From NCBI GenBank assembly GCA_902785785.1, contig CADAAA010000004.1, forward strand, positions 1-64,000: a stretch of 64,000 nt of DNA. Reading direction: 5' to 3'. This document shows positions 2 to 61,988 of this stretch, piece by piece (position 1 is the stretch's first letter; each line of letters starts with the position of its first letter). The position numbers were made by a program, and so were the translations under genes. The notes beneath the pieces were generated by a model. The model did no database searches. It saw nothing but the letters and a program-made list of their open reading frames with translations, and was not told where the DNA came from. Origin of the DNA: an uncultured Bacteroidia bacterium. Its GTDB lineage: Bacteria > Bacteroidota > Bacteroidia > Bacteroidales > UBA932.

Positions 2-2407
2 ACCGCCACCGTCACCTACAATGGCAAGGCCACCCTCCAGGACTTCCACAGGCGCATTATGATGAACCGCGACGAACTGACCAAGTATCTCGGTTACGAA
101 TATGGCGACGACTGGGTGGATTCCCGTATCGGCATGTACGACTACAAGCACCCTTACTACGAGAACGGCGTCATCGATACCGACTGGCTCTCCGAGTACT
201 TCGAGCCCACCTGGAGCCAGCAGCACGGCATCAGCTTCTCCGGCGGTAATAGGAACGGACACTTCTTCACCTCCCTCAACTATGTGTACGACGACGGTGT
301 CGTCAAGGGAAAGAAGGATGTGTACAAGCGTCTCACCGCCCAGGTCAACGCCGACTACAACCTTTTCAAATGGCTGCAGGTCGGAGTCAACAACTCCATT
401 GAGAAATGGGCCACCCAGAGCGTTTCCCAGCGTGGTTACGGTTCTTCATTCGAATCCGTCCTTTCCATGGACCCTATGACCCCTGTCTACTGGGTCACTC
501 CTGAGGAAATGTCCCTGTCGTTCAAGACAATCTACGATGCCCTTCAGAACGGAACCTCCGACATCAACTACACCCTGTTCCGCGACGAGAAAGGCTGGTA
601 TGCCAACACCAAGTACTCCGATATGGAAGGTAGCGCCTTCGCAAAGCGTGACGCCACCGACAGTGAAAACGGCGGTTTCAACATCAACGGAACCTTCTTC
701 GCCAACCTCAAGCCCCTCAAGGGCCTGACCATCACTTCCCGTCTCGGCTACCGCCTCAACTTCGGCGTCAGCCACAGCTACAGCGCTCCTTATTGGATCG
801 GCGACCGCGGTTCGCAGAAGACCTACAGCATCTCCGCCAACGCCTCCACCGGCTGGTACTATCAGTGGGAGAACTTCGCCAACTACCTCTTCAACATCGG
901 CAAGAACAACTTCACCGTGATGGCAGGTATGTCTTACCGTGAGTCCAACAGTGATAATGTGAACGCCGGCTCCAGCGGCGAGGACATCCTCTCCAGCTAC
1001 GAGCCCAACTTCCGCTATCTCTCCTACGTGCTTTCCGGCGCTCCGAAGACCATCAGCAACGCCCCGAGCAAGAGCGCTTCCCTCGCCTACTTCGGCCGTC
1101 TCATCTGGAACTACGACAACAGGTATCAGATCCAGGCCAACTTCCGTGCTGATGCATTCGACTCCTCCAAGCTTCCCGCCAGCAACCGCTGGGGATACTT
1201 CCCGTCAGTCTCCGCTTACTGGACCATCAGCAACGAGCAGTTCTTCAAGGACAATGTCAACACCAACGTGTTCAACTTCCTGAAGTTCCGCGCATCCTGG
1301 GGACGCAACGGTAACATCAGCGTGCTGAGCGGTTATCCTTACACCGCTACGATCAACATCGGCTCCAGCTCCTACCAGTACGATGTCGACAACATCGGCA
1401 ACTCCTACGGTTCCGCCCCGAGCAAGCTCCCTAACCCGAACCTTAAGTGGGAGACCTCCGAGCAGATCGACTTCGGTATCGACGCCCGTATGTTCAACAA
1501 CCGCCTGACCTTCACCGCCGACTACTTCAACAAGCAGACCAAGGACCTCCTCTTCAGTGTTACCATCCCATCCGAGCTCGGTTTCTCGTCCGTGACCACC
1601 AACGGCGGTAATGTCCTCAACACCGGTTGGGAGTTCGAGCTTGGCTGGAGGGACCACATCGGCGACCTCAACTACAGCATCAGCGGTAACTTCTCGACAC
1701 TGCACAACGAAGTCCTCTCTCTCGCCGAGGGTTCCACTCCTTCCCGCAGGACCGACGCCAGCTCCTCCAACTACCAGGTTGAGACAGTCTTCGACGTAGG
1801 TTACCCGATCTGGTACATGAACGGTTACGAGTATGCCGGTGTCTCTAGCGACGGCAAGCCCGAGTTCATCAACGCCAACGGCGAGCGCACCGATGTCGTC
1901 AGCTCCGGTGACCTGAAGTTCATCGGCCAGACCACTCCTAAATATACCTTCGGCCTGAACCTCAGCCTCGATTACAAGGGCTTTGACTTCGCCCTCTACG
2001 GTTCCGGTGTCGCAGGAAACGTCATCATGCCTGTCCTTCACCGTACCGGTTTCAAGAACGACCTCAAGTACTACCTCGAGGCCTATGAGAGCGGCAAGTA
2101 TCCGAACCTTTCCGAGGTCTCAGGAAACTACCAGTTCTGGTCTTCGACCGCCAACGTGTTCAAGGGCGACTACTTCCGTATCAAGCAGATGCAGTTCGGC
2201 TATACCATCCCTTCGAGAATCACGAAGAAGGTCGCCATCAGCAACCTCCGCTTCTACGTCTCGCTCGACGACTATTTCACCTTCACCAAGTATCCCGGAC
2301 TCGATCCTGAGACCGCTTCTATGAACAACTCCACCGGTGCCGGTCTCGACTTTGGCTCGTATCCTACGATGCAGAAGATTCTCCTCGGTGTCAATATCAC
2401 GTTCTAA
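2..2407 (+). CDS. SusC/RagA-type TonB-dependent outer membrane transporter, 5'-truncated by the window edge
   Basis: This is the C-terminal part of a SusC-family porin that imports oligosaccharides through the outer membrane, powered by TonB and lidded by its SusD partner. The frame is open from base 2, so the first ATG at 59 is internal. About 801 residues are visible. They begin in the plug region and continue through the 22-strand barrel, with the aromatic-rich alternating strands of the family and a C-terminal strand ending in Phe (LLGVNITF). The signal peptide, the carboxypeptidase-like N-terminal domain and the TonB box lie outside the window. SusD follows at once, as in nearly all PULs. 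The family assignment is firm; substrate specificity cannot be read from this fragment. Confidence 0.95.
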   Translation, partial: TATVTYNGKATLQDFHRRIMMNRDELTKYLGYEYGDDWVDSRIGMYDYKHPYYENGVIDTDWLSEYFEPTWSQQHGISFSGGNRNGHFFTSLNYVYDDGVVKGKKDVYKRLTAQVNADYNLFKWLQVGVNNSIEKWATQSVSQRGYGSSFESVLSMDPMTPVYWVTPEEMSLSFKTIYDALQNGTSDINYTLFRDEKGWYANTKYSDMEGSAFAKRDATDSENGGFNINGTFFANLKPLKGLTITSRLGYRLNFGVSHSYSAPYWIGDRGSQKTYSISANASTGWYYQWENFANYLFNIGKNNFTVMAGMSYRESNSDNVNAGSSGEDILSSYEPNFRYLSYVLSGAPKTISNAPSKSASLAYFGRLIWNYDNRYQIQANFRADAFDSSKLPASNRWGYFPSVSAYWTISNEQFFKDNVNTNVFNFLKFRASWGRNGNISVLSGYPYTATINIGSSSYQYDVDNIGNSYGSAPSKLPNPNLKWETSEQIDFGIDARMFNNRLTFTADYFNKQTKDLLFSVTIPSELGFSSVTTNGGNVLNTGWEFELGWRDHIGDLNYSISGNFSTLHNEVLSLAEGSTPSRRTDASSSNYQVETVFDVGYPIWYMNGYEYAGVSSDGKPEFINANGERTDVVSSGDLKFIGQTTPKYTFGLNLSLDYKGFDFALYGSGVAGNVIMPVLHRTGFKNDLKYYLEAYESGKYPNLSEVSGNYQFWSSTANVFKGDYFRIKQMQFGYTIPSRITKKVAISNLRFYVSLDDYFTFTKYPGLDPETASMNNSTGAGLDFGSYPTMQKILLGVNITF

Positions 2408-2422
2408 ACAATGATTTGTGAA

Positions 2423-4231
2423 ATGAAAAAGATATTCCTTCCTATACTTTTAGCGTTCTCGCTCTTCGCAGTGTCCTGCGAGTCGAAGCTTGAGATCCCC
2501 CAGAAGGGTACCGTCAGCACATTGGAGTTCTACTCCTCCGATGAAGACGCCGAGGCTGCCCTCAACAACATCTATGCGAGCTTCATCAGCATTGCATCCG
2601 CCAACTCTATCAACAACCCTGAGCTGATGCTGCTCAACTACTCCTCCGACGATATCCTCGCGGCCGGCGGAAACATCGACGACCATGACGATTTCCGTAT
2701 CTTCGACGAATTCCGTTATTCTGAGACTATTGGACTCCTGAAAACCTGCTACGATCGCTATGTTTCCTGTATCTATGCCTGCAACCTTGTGATCTCCAAC
2801 TTCACGACCGAGAACCGCAACAACACCGAGCCCAAGTGGGAAAGCGAGTACACCAAGAAGTGCGTCGCCCAGGCCCGCGTGATGCGCGCTTACGTCCATA
2901 TGATGATGGCCATCATCTGGAACCGTCCCGCCATCATCGACCGCCTGCTCGAGCCCGATGAGCTCCCTGTCCAGGCCGAAAGCCAGTCCGCCATCCTCAA
3001 GTGGGTCATCGCCGAGTGCGAGAAGGCCATTTCTTCCGGCTACCTGCCCAAGCGCAACGGACCCAACGACAAGAACGGCACCGCTATCATGACTGTAGGA
3101 TTCGCCCAGTTCACCGCCGGCAAAGCCGCCGTGTTCGACAATGATATGGCCACCGCCCGCAAGTACCTCGGCGACCTCATCGCTTCCGGGAACTATGTAC
3201 TTATCCCTACCGAGGAGTACTGGACCAACTTCCACATCGATGGTGACGGCAACAGCGAGAAGATCTTCGCTCCCAACTACATCTATGACCCCAACCTCGG
3301 ATGGACCAACACCATGCGCAGCCGCTGGATGGTCGCCAACGTCCTCTGCTGGCGTACCGACCACCTCGCTTCCATTCCTCCTTGCACCCCTTGCGCAGGT
3401 TGGAACGGCGGTGCCATCCAGGAAGACTTCGCCAAGAAGTTCCTGGAGCACGACGGTGACTCTCCTCGCCGCAAGGCCTGCTTCATCACCGAGGATGAGT
3501 GGCTCTATGAGATGGAGTGGAACTCCGACAAGAACGACGCTTCCCTCGAGGAGAGGATGGCCGATCCCAACCGCGGTATCTCCGACGTGACCGGTATCTA
3601 CAGCCACGGCCCTTACTTCGAGTGGAAACGCATGTCCTACGCAAAGCCCTCCAGGATCCTTACCGGCGGCAGCGACAAATACCGTGGTGACAACGTCCAG
3701 GCCGTCAGCGGCGGTTCCTCCAACCAGTCCAACTTCCCTGTGGCCCGCTACGCCGAGGCTCTCCTCCTTTACGCCGAGGCTTGCATTAGTTCCAGTGACG
3801 AGGCCAAGGGTCTCGCAGCCCTCAACCAGGTCCAGGAGCGTTCCGGATCCGGCAAGATCAGCAGCAAGCTCACCTTCCAGGACGTGATGGAGGAGAAGCA
3901 GTACGAGATGTGGTGGGAAGGCTGCCGCTTCCCCGACCTCGTCCGTTGGGACAACCTCGGAAAGGTCGACATGAAGGCCATCTTCAACACCAGCTGGGGC
4001 GGCAAGGGCATCCACAAGGAGGTCCCTACCGTATTCGACGAGTACTTCGTGGAAGGCAAGCCCGGATACAAGAAGTATCACAAACTTTACGAGACTTACT
4101 CTTCGGTGAAGTACAACGACTTCTCCGACAAGTACAAATACTTCCCGTTCCCTCGTGACAGGAAGGCTGTCAACAAGTTCAAGGATGTCCTTGGCTGGGA
4201 GTACCTCAACGTTGCAGAGGAAGGCGAATAG
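2423..4231 (+). CDS. SusD/RagB family nutrient-binding outer membrane lipoprotein
   Basis: SusD-like proteins sit on the SusC barrel and capture glycans at the cell surface. The N-terminus is a lipoprotein signal (MKKIFLPILLAFSLFAVSC, lipidated Cys) followed by the RagB/SusD alpha-helical fold and the usual C-terminal region with the order gene, receptor and 'FPRDRKAVNKF' near the end. I start at 2423 because it gives a canonical signal peptide; an ATG at 2411 would add four residues (MICE). It lies directly after SusC and before a strong terminator, so susC-susD form one transcript that may be processed or terminated before the enzyme genes. Confidence 0.95.
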   Translation: MKKIFLPILLAFSLFAVSCESKLEIPQKGTVSTLEFYSSDEDAEAALNNIYASFISIASANSINNPELMLLNYSSDDILAAGGNIDDHDDFRIFDEFRYSETIGLLKTCYDRYVSCIYACNLVISNFTTENRNNTEPKWESEYTKKCVAQARVMRAYVHMMMAIIWNRPAIIDRLLEPDELPVQAESQSAILKWVIAECEKAISSGYLPKRNGPNDKNGTAIMTVGFAQFTAGKAAVFDNDMATARKYLGDLIASGNYVLIPTEEYWTNFHIDGDGNSEKIFAPNYIYDPNLGWTNTMRSRWMVANVLCWRTDHLASIPPCTPCAGWNGGAIQEDFAKKFLEHDGDSPRRKACFITEDEWLYEMEWNSDKNDASLEERMADPNRGISDVTGIYSHGPYFEWKRMSYAKPSRILTGGSDKYRGDNVQAVSGGSSNQSNFPVARYAEALLLYAEACISSSDEAKGLAALNQVQERSGSGKISSKLTFQDVMEEKQYEMWWEGCRFPDLVRWDNLGKVDMKAIFNTSWGGKGIHKEVPTVFDEYFVEGKPGYKKYHKLYETYSSVKYNDFSDKYKYFPFPRDRKAVNKFKDVLGWEYLNVAEEGE

Positions 4232-4284
4232 CGATAGAGTTTGTCGAAAGTTTCAAAACGAAGCTTAAACATGTCCCATTATGG

Positions 4285-4313
4285 AGAGGGCGCCTGATGG
4301 CGTCCTCTTTTTA
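4285..4313 (+). terminator. Rho-independent terminator after susD
   Basis: A 10-bp stem (AGAGGGCGCC with GGCGTCCTCT, one G-U pair) with the 4-nt loop TGAT is followed by five T. It separates the highly transcribed susC-susD pair from the enzyme genes. Confidence 0.8.
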
Positions 4314-4382
4314 TTTACCATAACCTGAATCAATTTTAAAGCAAATGGTCTATATTTACAATTCCATGTTCGCTGAAAATTG

Positions 4383-4390
4383 TATTTTTG
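4383..4390 (+). promoter_or_regulatory. Bacteroidota -7 box before the GH43-like gene
   Basis: TATTTTTG matches the consensus TAnnTTTG and lies 43 bp before the ATG at 4434. I see no clear TTTG 19-21 bp upstream, so the -33 element is weak or absent. Together with the terminator before it, the box suggests a second transcription start for the enzymes. Confidence 0.45.
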
Positions 4391-4433
4391 TGAAAGCATA
4401 GCATAGAGCATTCATAAACTAACATCCAATACC

Positions 4434-5609
4434 ATGAGATTTATCAAAATCGCCATTTTGGCAACCATGTCAGCGTTACTGCTTCTCTCCTGCCAGCAGA
4501 ACCAGTCCAACCCCTGTGAACCTTCTACCGAACGCAAGGTCATCGAACCTGGAGAGCAGGCTCCTCCTGCAAGTCCCGGTCAGAATAATTTCGGTGGCAT
4601 GATATCTTCCGCCCCGCGTGACACCACCGGTATGGCTGAGCGCATGCGCCGCATGCGTGAGGAGCAGAACCGCATCCGCACCGTCCATTTCAACGACCTC
4701 TCGATGAGCGACCCGTTCATCTATGCGGATGAGGCCACCAAGACCTATTATCTCACCAGCTCCGGCGGACGCCAGTACCGTTCCAAGGACCTCGTGATGT
4801 GGGAGGGACCTTACAATGTCATTGACCTGACCGGTACCTGGTGCGAGAAGGCCGGCTTCGCGGCCGCGGCCGAGATCCACAAGATCGGTAACTATTACTA
4901 CTATGCAGGTACCTGGAGTGACCACAGCGAGATCATCCAGCAGGTGCCCAGACGCTACAACGTGCCTCACAACCAGACCTATCTCCTCCGTTCCGAGAGT
5001 CCCGAGGGACCGTTCGTTCCTTTCTCCATCACTCCCGGTTACGACTATCAGCCTTATGAGTGGGACTGCATCGACGGAACCCTCTATGAGGAGGACGGCC
5101 ATATCTATATGGTCTTCGTCCATGAGTGGACCCAGCTGATCGACGGTACCATGGACTACATCGAGCTGTCCAAGGACCTCACCCAGACCATCTCCGAGTG
5201 GCCTGTCACCATGTTCCGCGCATCCGAGGCTCCGTCCTGCGGTGAAATGAACGGCCTCGGAGAGGCTACCTTCGGCATGAAGATGCCCGGTTGGGTGACC
5301 GACGGTCCCCAGATGTTCCGCACCCAGACCGGCAAGCTCGGTATGCTCTGGTCCACTTGGGGCAAGGAGCGCTATCTCCAGGAGGTCTGCTACTCCGAGT
5401 CCGGTACTATCGCCGGACCTTGGGTCCAGGAGCCCGAGCCGTTCCTCGGCAACAACTCCGGTCATGGCATGCTCTTCCGCACCTTCGACGGTGAGCTCCG
5501 TTATGTCGTGCATCACGTCGAGGGCAACGGCCCCCGCAAGCCTCAGTACTGGACTGTCGATGACTCCGGCGACAAGCTTAAGCTCGGACACCAGATCATC
5601 TTGAAATAA
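4434..5609 (+). CDS. Glycoside hydrolase family 43-like lipoprotein (arabinofuranosidase/xylosidase type)
   Basis: A 391-residue surface or periplasmic lipoprotein (signal ending LLLLSC) with a low-complexity linker and one five-bladed beta-propeller domain. The GH43 catalytic acids can be placed at Asp93 (MSDPFIY, base), Asp214 (CIDGTLYEEDG, pKa modulator) and Glu265 (SEAP, acid); a late His in NNSGHGM fits the metal-coordinating His of the family. These enzymes remove arabinose or xylose side groups from hemicellulose. The subfamily cannot be assigned by eye. It stands between two terminators, so it may be expressed as its own unit. Confidence 0.8.
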   Translation: MRFIKIAILATMSALLLLSCQQNQSNPCEPSTERKVIEPGEQAPPASPGQNNFGGMISSAPRDTTGMAERMRRMREEQNRIRTVHFNDLSMSDPFIYADEATKTYYLTSSGGRQYRSKDLVMWEGPYNVIDLTGTWCEKAGFAAAAEIHKIGNYYYYAGTWSDHSEIIQQVPRRYNVPHNQTYLLRSESPEGPFVPFSITPGYDYQPYEWDCIDGTLYEEDGHIYMVFVHEWTQLIDGTMDYIELSKDLTQTISEWPVTMFRASEAPSCGEMNGLGEATFGMKMPGWVTDGPQMFRTQTGKLGMLWSTWGKERYLQEVCYSESGTIAGPWVQEPEPFLGNNSGHGMLFRTFDGELRYVVHHVEGNGPRKPQYWTVDDSGDKLKLGHQIILK

Positions 5610-19397: not shown

Positions 19398-19595
19398 GGA
19401 GACCAACCCTTCTGGATGGACAAATCGTTTGGAACAAGGATATGCCCTGGACGCTTCTATAGACAGTAGTCATGTTCGCAACCCAGCGTATTTCTTTGGT
19501 TTGCGAACATTGACTGCCCTCTGAGGCTTCTGGAATGGGTGTTTGTGTTCCCGACGATTTGTCGAGGGGGGGGGGGAGAGTTAAGTACATGATAG

Positions 19596-19641
19596 AAATA
19601 ATCCGGAGATTCAGCAGTTTAACTGAATCTCCGGATTATTT
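19596..19641 (-). terminator. Long hairpin ending the V-ATPase operon
   Basis: A perfect 19-bp stem (19596-19614 with 19623-19641) encloses an 8-nt loop, 39 bp after the stop of the K subunit. The stem ends in AAATAA/TTATTT, giving only a short U-run on either strand, so it could act in both directions or as a 3'-end stabiliser. Confidence 0.7.
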
Positions 19642-19680
19642 CGACTCCCGGGAGCATGGCGCCCGGGAAAGGTCCAGGCT

Positions 19681-30988: not shown

Positions 30989-31025
30989 AAAAAGAGACAT
31001 CCTGAAAACCAGGATGTCTCTTTTT
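30989..31025 (-). terminator. Rho-independent terminator after yebC
   Basis: A perfect 16-bp stem (30989-31004 with 31010-31025) with a 5-nt loop, rich in T on the - strand 3' side. It lies 27 bp after the yebC stop and just upstream of the mmdA promoter, insulating the two. Confidence 0.88.
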
Positions 31026-43131: not shown

Positions 43132-43256
43132 CACGGAGGCAGATTGCCTCACAAACCTTTCGCTTCGCTTCATCCCACCGCTGCGCTTCGCTTGCGGTCC
43201 CCCCGTTCACGAGGCCACGGGCGGCCACGGGTTTGTCGAGGCAATCTGCCTCCGTG
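43132..43256. repeat. 125-bp symmetrical palindromic element between convergent genes (copy 1)
   Basis: A perfect 19-bp outer inverted repeat (43132-43150 with 43238-43256) continues, after one unpaired C, as 7 bp more (43151-43157 with 43230-43236). The core holds hairpins ACCGC/GCGGT (43177-43181 with 43194-43198) and CCCGT/ACGGG (43202-43206 with 43217-43221), and CGCTTCGCTT occurs twice. Each outer arm is itself a hairpin (GAGGC-AGATT-GCCTC). It fills the 130-bp gap between ffh and the 5'-nucleotidase gene. There is no T-run. Confidence 0.8.
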
Positions 43257-49818: not shown

Positions 49819-49873
49819 GAAAAAATGTGCGGAAAATGAACTCCTATCCCGGACAATTTTGGGCGATTTCGCA

Positions 49874-49881
49874 TATATTTG
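49874..49881 (+). promoter_or_regulatory. -7 box abutting nadE
   Basis: TATATTTG fits TAnnTTTG and ends 7 bp before the nadE ATG, so transcription should begin at or next to the start codon (leaderless mRNA). Confidence 0.6.
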
Positions 49882-49888
49882 CAACATC

Positions 49889-51565
49889 ATGAGCAAAAAC
49901 GGAGTTTTGACTGTTGCCGCCGTCACGCCAAGGGTGTGGCTTGCGGATCCTGCGAAGAATGCAGAGGAGATCATCAGCCTTGCCTGCGAGGCGGCAGCCG
50001 TAGGCGCTGACATCATCGTGTCCCCTGAAATGAGCGTCACCGGCTCTTCCTGCGGAGACCTTTTCAAGCAGTCGATTTTGCTTGATGCTGCGCAGAAGGC
50101 GGCTGAGTCGGTCGCGAAGGCATTGCCCAGCCTGGACGCGACGGTCGTCATCGGCCTTCCGGTGCCCTCGGAAGGAGGTTTTTCCTCCGGAGCGGCAATC
50201 ATCAAGCGCGGCCGCTTCGTAGGAAGTGACTCCCGTTTCCTTCTGGTCACGGGGGACCGCATCCCTGAAGACCTGCCCGAGGGGACATCCCTGGTGCTGC
50301 ATCTGGCGGCCGCTCCGGAGCTGGTGACCAGCCATGCGGTCCGCAAGCGGACGCTGGCCGGGCTGACTTACCGGACCGGGGCTGCTTATGTCTATTGCGC
50401 CGCGGGGTACGGCGAGTCCACAGGTGACGCCGTATATGCCGGCCCTTCGCTGATCTATCAGAAAGGCCGGCTGCTGGCGGAGAACGGGCGTTTCAAGACA
50501 GAGTCGGGCATCATCTATGCCGCCCTGGACCCTTCTGCTGAAGCGGAGGAGCCTTCGCCGGCTCCGGAAGTCCAGATGCCCAATCCCCATCCTTTCGTCC
50601 CCGCCGATCCGGATGTGCTGGCATTACGCTGCGAAGAGATCCTTTCCATCCAGGTCAACGGACTCCGTACCCGTCTGGAACATGTCGGATGCAAAACCGC
50701 GGTCCTGGGTATCTCGGGCGGGCTTGATTCCACTTTGGCGCTGCTTGTGACGGCTGCGACTTTCGACAGCCTCGGCTACGACAGGAAGGGCATCATCGCC
50801 GTCACGATGCCGGGCTTCGGCACCTCGAAACGCACGCACTCCAATGCCTCCGACCTTATGGCTGCGCTCGGAGTGGATGCACGGGAGATCCCTATCGGTG
50901 CAGCCGTGTCGCAGCATTTCTCGGACATAGGCCACGATCCTGACAATCACAATGTTACGTTTGAGAATGCCCAGGCTCGCGAGCGTACCCAGATACTGAT
51001 GGACATCGCCAATGACACCGACGGCCTCGTGGTCGGAACCGGGGATCTTTCTGAGATCGCACTCGGCTGGTGTACCTACAACGGCGACCACATGGCCAAT
51101 TATTCCGTAAACGCCGACGTACCGAAGACCTTGATGCAGGCTATGGTGCGCTGGGCTGCAGTGAACCGTTTCCCGGAGGCTCGGAAGACCTTGCTGGACA
51201 TCGTGGACACGCCCATCAGTCCCGAACTGACTCCGGTTGACGAGCACGGCAACATCAAGCAGAAGACCGAAGACATCGTCGGCCCGTATGAACTTCACGA
51301 CTTCTTCCTGTATCACCTGGTGCGTCACGCCCGCCGTCCGCGCGAGATCCGCTCCCTCGCGTTGGAGGCGTTCGCGGGCAAATACGACGAAGCCACCGTC
51401 GACCGGTGGCTCCGTAAATTCCTCTGGAGATTCTTCTCCCAGCAGTTCAAGCGCTCATGTTCCCCTGAAGGCCCGCGTGTCGGGTCGGTCTGCCTGTCGC
51501 CCCGCGGCGCATGGGCAGCTCCTTCCGACGTCTCCGCCGCCCTCTGGGTCTCCGATCTCGATTGA
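49889..51565 (+). CDS. nadE: NAD synthetase with degenerate glutaminase domain
   Basis: A 558-residue protein. Residues about 290-558 are an intact NAD synthetase domain (GISGGLDSTLALL pyrophosphatase loop, PGFGTSKRTHSNA, GTGDLSEIALGW). Residues 1-215 are nitrilase-like: the catalytic Glu is present (Glu47, SPEMSVTG) and YCAAGYGEST is conserved, but the segment that should carry the Lys (K-T-x-L-P-N-Y) and the Cys (E-I-C-E-D-L-W) is missing. Around residues 108-145 it goes directly from GRFVGSDSRF to VLHLAAAPE. The protein is shorter than the roughly 640 residues usual in the order. It may use free ammonia or an outside glutaminase. I start at 49889 (MSKNGVL) because the promoter box lies just upstream. 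Confidence 0.9.
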   Translation: MSKNGVLTVAAVTPRVWLADPAKNAEEIISLACEAAAVGADIIVSPEMSVTGSSCGDLFKQSILLDAAQKAAESVAKALPSLDATVVIGLPVPSEGGFSSGAAIIKRGRFVGSDSRFLLVTGDRIPEDLPEGTSLVLHLAAAPELVTSHAVRKRTLAGLTYRTGAAYVYCAAGYGESTGDAVYAGPSLIYQKGRLLAENGRFKTESGIIYAALDPSAEAEEPSPAPEVQMPNPHPFVPADPDVLALRCEEILSIQVNGLRTRLEHVGCKTAVLGISGGLDSTLALLVTAATFDSLGYDRKGIIAVTMPGFGTSKRTHSNASDLMAALGVDAREIPIGAAVSQHFSDIGHDPDNHNVTFENAQARERTQILMDIANDTDGLVVGTGDLSEIALGWCTYNGDHMANYSVNADVPKTLMQAMVRWAAVNRFPEARKTLLDIVDTPISPELTPVDEHGNIKQKTEDIVGPYELHDFFLYHLVRHARRPREIRSLALEAFAGKYDEATVDRWLRKFLWRFFSQQFKRSCSPEGPRVGSVCLSPRGAWAAPSDVSAALWVSDLD

Positions 51566-51567
51566 CC

Positions 51568-51693
51568 TTTACGGCAGCAATGCCATCATGAAAACTGTGC
51601 CACCCTCGGCAACATAAGAGGGAGGGGCCCAAGCTATGCTTGGGAGGGGTCCTGCGGAACAGGACGTTTTCAGGATGGCATTGCTGCCGTAAA
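51568..51693. repeat. 126-bp symmetrical palindromic element between convergent genes (copy 2)
   Basis: A perfect 20-bp outer inverted repeat (51568-51587 with 51674-51693) continues after one A/G mismatch as 7 bp more (51589-51595 with 51666-51672). Inside are three perfect hairpins: CCCTC/GAGGG (51603-51607 with 51618-51622), CCCAAGC/GCTTGGG (51628-51634 with 51638-51644) and GTCCTG/CAGGAC (51649-51654 with 51660-51665), giving a cloverleaf. Each outer arm also folds alone (GGCA-GCAA-TGCC). It fills the 132-bp gap between nadE and the PNP gene. Confidence 0.85.
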
Positions 51694-51697
51694 AGGG

Positions 51698-52525
51698 CTA
51701 GAGTGTCGCGATGAGGCGGGTGAAGAGCTCGCACATGCGGTCTGCGGCGGCATCCGCTGCGCGGACCACGTCCTCACCGTCGTTGTGGTTCCTGGTGATG
51801 TTGTCGGTATTGCACTTGTTGGTGATCACGGACATTCCGAACACGCGGATGCCGCAATGGCGCGCCACAATGACCTCCGGAATGGTGGACATTCCGAGTA
51901 CGTCAGCGCCGACCATCCGGTAGAACCGGACTTCGGCGGGAGTCTCGTAAGTAGGACCGGGATTGCCGAAATACACACCCTTGTGATACCGCACCCCCAT
52001 ATCGATGGCAATCTGCTGGGCCCTGTCTATGAGCTCGAGGTCGTATGCGCACGTCATGTCGGGGAAACGCGGACCGAAATCCTCGAAGTTGGGTCCCAGC
52101 AAAGGGTTGGGGAAGAGGCTGATATGGTCCTTGATGATCATCAGGTCGCCGACCTCGAAGTCGGGATTGGCTCCGCCGGCGGCATTGGATACGAACAGAT
52201 ATTCGATGCCGAGCGTCTTCATGACGCGGACCGGCAGCGTGACGAGCTCCATCGGATAGCCTTCGTAGTAGTGGAAGCGTCCCTGCATGGCGATGACGAA
52301 CTTGCCGCCGAAATCCCCGGCGATGAAGTTGCCTTTGTGACCGATGGCGGTGGATACAGGGAACCCGGGGATGGTCCGGTAAGGGATGACGACAGGGTTC
52401 TCTATGCGGTCGGCAAGCTTGCCGAGCCCGCTGCCGAGGATGATTCCGGCCACGGGGGCACGGCCTCCGAGCTGCTCGCGGATGAACGCGGCAGCGGCAT
52501 TGATCTTTTCAACTCTGGGGTCCAT
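51698..52525 (-). CDS. Purine nucleoside phosphorylase (trimeric, inosine/guanosine type)
   Basis: A 275-residue PNP-I enzyme with the phosphate loop [26 protein letters not shown], and the purine-site block [28 protein letters not shown] followed by ITNKC. It splits purine nucleosides with phosphate for salvage. Length is normal for the trimeric class. It follows the DUF3276 gene by 10 bp on the same strand. Confidence 0.93.
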
Positions 52526-61632: not shown

Positions 61633-61971
61633 AAAGGTGGAGCGATCTGCCGCGGCATCATGCTGAGGAAAGTCCGGACAGGACAGGGCACCCCGCTGCG
61701 GAAAGCGCAGGTGGGAGCGATCTTACGCCGGCCGTAACAGAAAACAACCGCCGCCTTCGCTGAGAGGCTTTGCCTCTGACGGAAGACGGCAAGGGTGAAA
61801 ACGCGAGGCAAGAGCTCACGACGCCGCACAGCGATGTGCGCCGGGTACGGCACCGGGGCCTGCAAGACCAAATATACCGGCAGACGAGGGCGGCCCGCCC
61901 GATGCCGGGGGGTAGGTTGCGAAGATAAATGGCAGATTCAAAAACAGAAACCGGCTTACGGCTCCGCCTTT
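61633..61971 (+). ncRNA. rnpB: RNase P RNA
   Basis: The universal core GAGGAAAGTCCGGAC (CR-I/P4 5' side) is at about 61673, the matching 3' part and the hallmark AACAGAAACCGGCTTAC end block lie near 61943-61959, and helix P1 closes the molecule: AAAGGTGGAGC (61633-61643) pairs with GCTCCGCCTTT (61961-61971) over 11 bp. It is a ribozyme that matures the 5' ends of tRNAs. A T-run directly after P1 ends transcription. Ends are set by P1 and may be off by a few bases. Confidence 0.93.
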
Positions 61972-61988
61972 TTTTATTTTGGAATGCT

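Follow-up and report, generated by a model that had tools for sequence, protein, structure and literature searches.

In the 64,000-nucleotide stretch of DNA analysed here (the window, positions 1 to 64000 of contig C4 in a genome of 2.36 Mb and 12 contigs), the gene for NAD+ synthase (nadE, plus strand, 49859-51565) converges on that for purine-nucleoside phosphorylase (PNP, minus strand, 51698-52525, ending at 51698), and the gap between them is filled by a palindromic element of 126 bp. Its left arm (51568-51595, plus strand) and the complementary right arm (51666-51693, plus strand) are 28 nt each, are separated by a spacer of 70 nt and pair at 27 of 28 positions (96% complementarity), the single A.G mismatch lying 7 pairs out from the core. 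This pairing bears out, coordinates included, the outer stem of 20 + 7 pairs with one mismatch that a preliminary description of the DNA had proposed. The three inner hairpins and the four-way junction of that description are likewise recovered in the minimum-energy fold of the element, at -75 kcal/mol compared with a mean of -38.95 (sd 3.56) for shuffled versions (z -10.13, with 0 of 200 shuffles as stable).

Within the spacer, on the plus strand, the core opens with two interleaved stems. Stem S1 (51596-51614) is formed by 51596-51601 (TGTGCC) with 51608-51611 and 51613-51614 (GGCA and CA), A51612 being bulged, and stem S2 (51603-51622) by 51603-51607 (CCCTC) with 51618-51622 (GAGGG). These are followed by hairpin 2 (51628-51644; CCCAAGC with GCTTGGG, with AGGGG on both sides) and hairpin 3 (51649-51665; GTCCTG with CAGGAC), both of which are supported by the fold and by covariation in alignments. 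A promoter-like sequence, TTGACC-16-CATCAT (51562-51589), overlaps the left arm; one such match was found, compared with 0.0 (sd 0.2) expected in shuffles. Elsewhere in the window, perfect short-loop inverted repeats of 20 and 16 bp (19595-19642 and 30989-31025) are candidate terminators, and the RNase P RNA class A (61634-61974) is the sole match in the window to Rfam 15 at the gathering threshold. At that threshold neither the element in the window nor 13 of the loci in its own genome match any Rfam family, and the matches seen are all sub-threshold.

The window contains a second element, copy 1, at 43132-43256 on the minus strand. A covariance model (hereafter R1) for which 88 copies of the nadE/PNP type were used provides a structure-based search of the kind that the preliminary description had suggested. 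It recovers copy 1 from the 64 kb on the minus strand (43142-43246, 37.5 bits, E 1.1e-7), although copy 1 is absent from the model; its arms and related copies in the same genome were also found. Copy 1 is of a different subtype, with CCGCCCGTGGCCTCGTGAACGGG in the hairpin-1 region in place of CCACCCTCGGCATCGTAAGAGGG. This difference of subtype, together with the opposite strands, makes the two window copies look dissimilar. The earlier statement that their sequences are unlike does not stand: copy 1 has diverged but is of the family to which the nadE/PNP element belongs, and the R1 match overrules its treatment as a separate one.

In the element's own genome, a DNA search finds about 15 places that have the core, not the arms, in common, and R1 at E <= 0.01 gives 19 copies there and 15, 17 and 9 in three relatives. 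The core is present in 63 of 101 genomes of the genus, this one included (E <= 0.001). A pattern scan of a species-genome collection gives at least 115 stretches, and the 80 matches listed with titles are all from Bacteroidales, Bacteroidia or Rikenellaceae and include one Candidatus Cryptobacteroides. At E <= 1e-5, R1 finds the element in at least 52 of 199 genomes of the family, in 10 of its 25 genera, and in at least 5 of 393 genomes of the order, two other families being among them; both counts include the element's own genome and are lower bounds, owing to the stricter filters used in scans of more than 40 genomes. Presence across the family and the order is patchy. The genome G576, from a distant Bacteroidales family, contributes eight complete copies and one cut-off copy with essentially one arm sequence, and locus-specific arms are thus not universal; at three of the G576 loci L243-L251 (L244, L246 and L250), two elements of differing subtype lie close together. 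Six distant loci gave no Rfam match up to E 1, an exact-pattern scan of viral contigs and a BLAST search of plasmids and phages gave no match, and literature searches on Cryptobacteroides palindromes, Bacteroidetes palindromic repeats and structured mobile RNA of rumen Bacteroidales returned nothing relevant among the matches listed.

The conservation of the core was assessed in two alignments. In the first (A1, 88 diverse copies), 92.3% of the cells at 38 pairs, pseudoknot included, are paired, compared with 73.3 in shuffled rows; doubly changed cells number 668 versus 208, and the covariation score is 0.460 versus 0.142. Related rows can exceed shuffles even without structure, and a control that retains relatedness, in which the pairing was slid along the alignment, reached at most 0.127. 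The copies for A1 and for the arm statistics were collected with a pattern that is exact over the opening 27 nt of the core and free there at Y, W and R positions only, so that invariance in this segment is by construction. Of the 126 pattern copies, 6 whose arms did not reach 12 matches in 20 are excluded from A1 and from the tabulation that served for core lengths. The first pair of the pseudoknot (17-35) is UA in 61 and CG in 27 of the 88 copies, and nothing else, out of four combinations that the pattern permitted. The second alignment (A2, 94 matches, 92 of them distinct and distant members included), fitted to a model with S2 and the arms and without S1, gives a score of 0.566 versus 0.148 for shuffles. 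Stem S1 appears there as TGCC/GGCA, GGCC/GGCC and CTGC/GCAG, and stem S2 as CCCTC/GAGGG, CCCGT/ACGGG, CCCAT/ATGGG and CCCAC/GTGGG. The two interleaved stems form an H-type pseudoknot in the core, and both of them covary. Of the proposal that selection acts on structure without conserved sequence, the first half is upheld by A1 and more strongly by A2; the second applies to the arms only, as the sequence of the core is shared.

The left arm at nadE/PNP is not common to the other core copies of the genome. Even so, at least 14 of 20 arm positions are paired in 110 of the 126 pattern copies, compared with 44 of 1251 combinations of swapped arms (means 16.55 and 10.67), the arm position having been optimised alike, by best offset, for true and swapped pairs. 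Mismatches are frequent at pairs 5-6 from the core, where 82-84 of 120 copies have a Watson-Crick pair versus about 104-113 at the neighbouring positions. In 27 pairs of copies at the same site in different genomes (left-arm identity of at least 60%, fixed windows of 15 pairs, those having one copy in common being non-independent), 301 arm positions are unchanged, 50 show paired double changes, 9 other double changes and 45 one-sided changes. Uncompensated arm changes in relatives had been named beforehand as evidence against the proposal, and the outcome is mixed: such changes do occur, one-sided ones being about as frequent as paired double ones, though Watson-Crick pairing is retained on both sides of the comparison in 50 of the 59 double changes. 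Many of the one-sided changes fall at a handful of sites (L046/L070, 6; L018/L052, 5; L006/L080, L031/L041 and L040/L124, 4 each), and at some of these sites a bulge or deletion has, as judged by eye, shifted the register; in truB (L074) one-sided changes break pairs. Clean compensation is seen in L060/L099 (4 double, 0 one-sided), L071/L143 (3 and 0) and the dnaX pair of G190 and G116 (4 and 0). A further set (167 pairs from 114 copies) gives 664 paired double, 59 other double and 145 one-sided changes, a count that favours double changes because well-paired arms were required and unrelated loci included. The arms are maintained in pairing, and uncompensated changes are also present.

Comparison of genomes indicates that the element is an insertion. 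In two close relatives, G169 (whose flanks are 88% identical) and G116, the stop codons of nadE and PNP overlap with nothing between them, and a stretch of about 136 bp (51562-51697) is missing. At the recR site G190 has no element, G116 a truncated copy and G169 a short arm-like piece, which looks like a deletion remnant because of the truncated copy in G116. G169 also retains arm-like pieces at the intergenic L020 site. It has the hemW copy too, which is absent from G190 and, save a short core-like piece, from G116. No consistent target-site duplication is seen at the few sites compared: there is none clear at nadE/PNP, and a possible 3-bp GCT, found by eye, at L020. In G190 a different insertion occupies the nadE/PNP junction that is vacant in G169 and G116 (L183, G190:C30, about 1049-4766); its roughly 3.7 kb carry, by eye, sigma-factor-like and serpin-like ORFs. 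This insert was considered as an autonomous partner and discarded, as it encodes those two proteins and no element was seen. At the G190 junction that corresponds to the L020 copy (L201, G190:C45) there are about 1.1 kb with a phosphatase-like ORF, again by eye.

Copies occupying the same site in different genomes, identified by flank matching, gave 45 rows, or 37 distinct pairs once reciprocals had been removed by hand, and the core has the same orientation in 17 and the opposite one in 20 of them. Inversion in place probably occurs, since copies with similar arms have inverted cores both at the dnaX site and at L071/L143; the other sites of opposite orientation may reflect fresh insertion. 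The dnaX site of the element's own genome contains, by eye, remnants of two overlapping elements. Arms are able to travel together with the core, as is seen from the 89% match over 171 bp, extending through the arms, between the hemW copy of this genome and the copy at the dnaX site of G169.

By our reading, 14 of the 19 copies in the genome are located within conserved genes, in frames that stay open through the element. Thirteen of the hosts are atpG, aroK, rsmE, tilS, uvrA, hemW, recR, ribF, an rlmB-like gene, pcrA/uvrD, truB, mtaB and dnaX, named by NCBIfam matches of which some are below the curated cut-off and many cover both sides of the insert (in hemW, only the part after it). The fourteenth, identified by eye, is a recG-like gene whose frame is open through the element. 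The remaining five (the two window copies, L020, L190 and L191) were judged to be intergenic. Since most copies are inside genes, the position between abutting convergent stops that the preliminary description had emphasised is not the rule. The window copies, which both lie between convergent genes and have long arms, would suit an ordinary bidirectional transcription terminator; this reading was rejected as highly improbable because most copies in the genome are in genes and the only terminator-like match is weak, consisting of one small hairpin inside the element on the minus strand where 0.3 were expected. The mark of an intrinsic terminator, a stem and T-run at gene ends, is thus not seen. 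The conserved pseudoknot of the core also speaks against it.

Reading frames were assigned from the flanks alone for the 104 copies with enough flanking sequence, of which 53 have coding flanks on the same strand, 11 on opposite strands and 40 are unclear. Among the 53, 33 copies are in frame and free of stops (25 to 27 under other settings), 8 are in frame with 1 or 3 stops within the part scored, and 12 are frame-shifted with several stops and probably sit between co-directional genes. The core has a conserved TAA, and in a reading by hand none of the 33 open copies uses the frame that contains it; within the 27-nt core segment, no stop occurs in any of the remaining five frames. Core lengths, counted by hand, leave a remainder of 0 modulo 3 in 60 copies, 1 in 14 and 2 in 46, a bias that is only a weak sign of frame keeping because the subtypes differ. 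The open frames point to translation through the insert. They bear equally on the idea of an intron-like or ribosome-bypassed insert, in which the arms would join the two halves of a gene and the insert would be missing from the protein: long, locus-specific closing stems in conserved genes are in keeping with it, but an insert that is removed would need no open frame, and of the 41 in-frame copies 33 have one, in no case the TAA frame. As both orientations are moreover present, we regard this explanation as improbable.

Orientation is also relevant to whether the element is a structured RNA with a function for the host (in regulation, processing or formation of transcript ends) that has multiplied in these genomes. 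Covariation in both stems of the pseudoknot would be accounted for in this way, as would an excess of G.T over A.C in the arms, expected if the core-sense strand folds: read on the core strand, 81 versus 37 of 2726 arm pairs (63 versus 35 in A1, 46 versus 23 in A2). The excess hints that the core-sense strand is the folding strand, but it is modest per copy (31 versus 22 of 88 for the outer arm) and inconsistent in the core pairs, being absent from A1 (7 versus 12) and present in A2 (31 versus 15). Against such an RNA, the host gene is read in the sense of the core in 15 of the 33 open copies and antisense to it in 18, so that about half of the in-gene copies would not be read as such an RNA from the host gene, and presence at a given site varies between close species. 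A host function of this kind thus appears quite unlikely.

The origin of the matched arms was considered separately. Copying from the target site was discarded, as the empty nadE/PNP sites of G169 and G116 hold neither arm; the arm-like piece of G169 at recR looks like a remnant of deletion, and those at L020 may be of either origin. A source elsewhere in the genome was sought for the left arm alone, and its 19 of 20 match at C9:5420, in an unrelated stretch, was judged to be chance. Template switching, which according to an excerpt of PMC3820800 makes imperfect inverted repeats more perfect, could account for the matched arms. A further possibility, which we put forward only tentatively, is a new, shape-defined class of mobile element: its pseudoknotted core would move in folded, single-stranded form, its closing stem would be rewritten at each site by copying one arm from the other, giving every locus paired arms of its own, and the element would be borne within essential genes as an insert that is translated.

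The search for a mobilising enzyme centred on two protein families. Reverse transcriptase gave no match in the element's own genome and was matched in 1 of 7 genomes searched, and was thus dismissed as the mover. Divergent ORFs of the IS200-like (Y1, HUH) family, of about 300-320 aa, occur at 1-2 per genome in 4 of the 7, which are all four of the same-genus genomes searched (in the element's own genome L265:1405-2349 and L267:898-1794; also L263 and L264). A MITE or REP-like element moved by such a protein would fit this distribution, and structure-recognising single-strand transposases of the class are known, as an excerpt of PMC6006769 describes. However, no R1 match up to E 1 was found in the sequence around five Y1 ORFs and one reverse transcriptase (about 3 kb or less each), and the element-bearing G524, G576 and G606 have no Y1 match. 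We therefore regard this mover as rather unlikely. No autonomous partner, whose terminal inverted repeats the element might share, emerged from the Y1 and reverse transcriptase searches.

The explanation that we favour, with some confidence, is that the nadE/PNP element belongs to a family of mobile, non-autonomous palindromes of about 125 bp, resembling the Rickettsia palindromic elements (RPEs) and having a pseudoknotted core and locus-specific arms. The family, its structure and covariation, the absence in close relatives, the in-frame positions and the occurrence of both orientations support it directly. The conserved core, with its H-type pseudoknot and two hairpins, would probably be the recognition module for movement, and the outer stem would close the fold, almost any sequence being allowed provided that the arms pair. 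The element may move as a folded single strand, by the action of some enzyme, and would insert in either orientation. A copy within a gene would be tolerated as long as it keeps the frame and carries no stop, and would lengthen the protein by roughly 40 residues; an intergenic copy, as at nadE/PNP, would probably be neutral. The match between arms may arise by selection on folding, by templating of one arm on the other, or by both. Certain observations weigh against this explanation: no mobilising enzyme is linked to the element, the IS200-like ORFs lying away from the copies; no target-site duplication is consistent among the few sites compared; one-sided arm changes are about as frequent as paired double ones; and mobility is read from the comparison of genomes, no transposition event having been observed.

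Protein-coding palindromes are described for Rickettsia and Wolbachia, in excerpts of PMC10969869 and PMC3767692, without a known mechanism. The many copies per genome of the Bacteroidales family and the many comparable species make entry into essential genes, translation of the insert and pairing of the arms testable. Annotators should note that the extra stretches in RecR, AtpG, TruB and other proteins of these genomes are element-derived.

Among known systems, the attC sites of integrons are recognised by their folded shape, and their stem sequence is variable. Recognition of shape with variable stems would account for arms that are free in sequence and yet paired, but in the present family the conserved part is the inner core. 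Bacterial MITEs are also short, carry no ORF of their own and have inverted-repeat ends and copies throughout the genome; unlike them, the present copies within the genus mostly do not have their terminal repeats in common, lack a target-site duplication that is constant across the few sites examined and have no cognate transposase found in the Y1 and reverse transcriptase searches. REP/BIME sequences with their RAYT proteins are likewise palindromic, and an IS200-like protein occurs in the same-genus genomes searched, but the present element is longer, branched and, in its own genome, mostly intragenic, and none of its copies flanks the protein genes that were examined. The closest resemblance is to RPEs and their Wolbachia counterparts (WPEs), which according to the excerpts cited above (PMC10969869, PMC3767692) are palindromic, multicopy elements of about 100-150 bp that are inserted in frame in unrelated metabolic genes and recurrently occupy corresponding sites of orthologs. 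The size (126 bp), palindromy, number of copies (19), in-frame insertion into existing genes and recurrent occupation of ortholog sites are shared with them; the likeness is one of description. In contrast to them, the present family belongs to another phylum (Bacteroidales), its core is conserved and pseudoknotted, its paired arms differ from locus to locus, its core is inverted between species, and several reading frames are in use, such that no single peptide is conserved.
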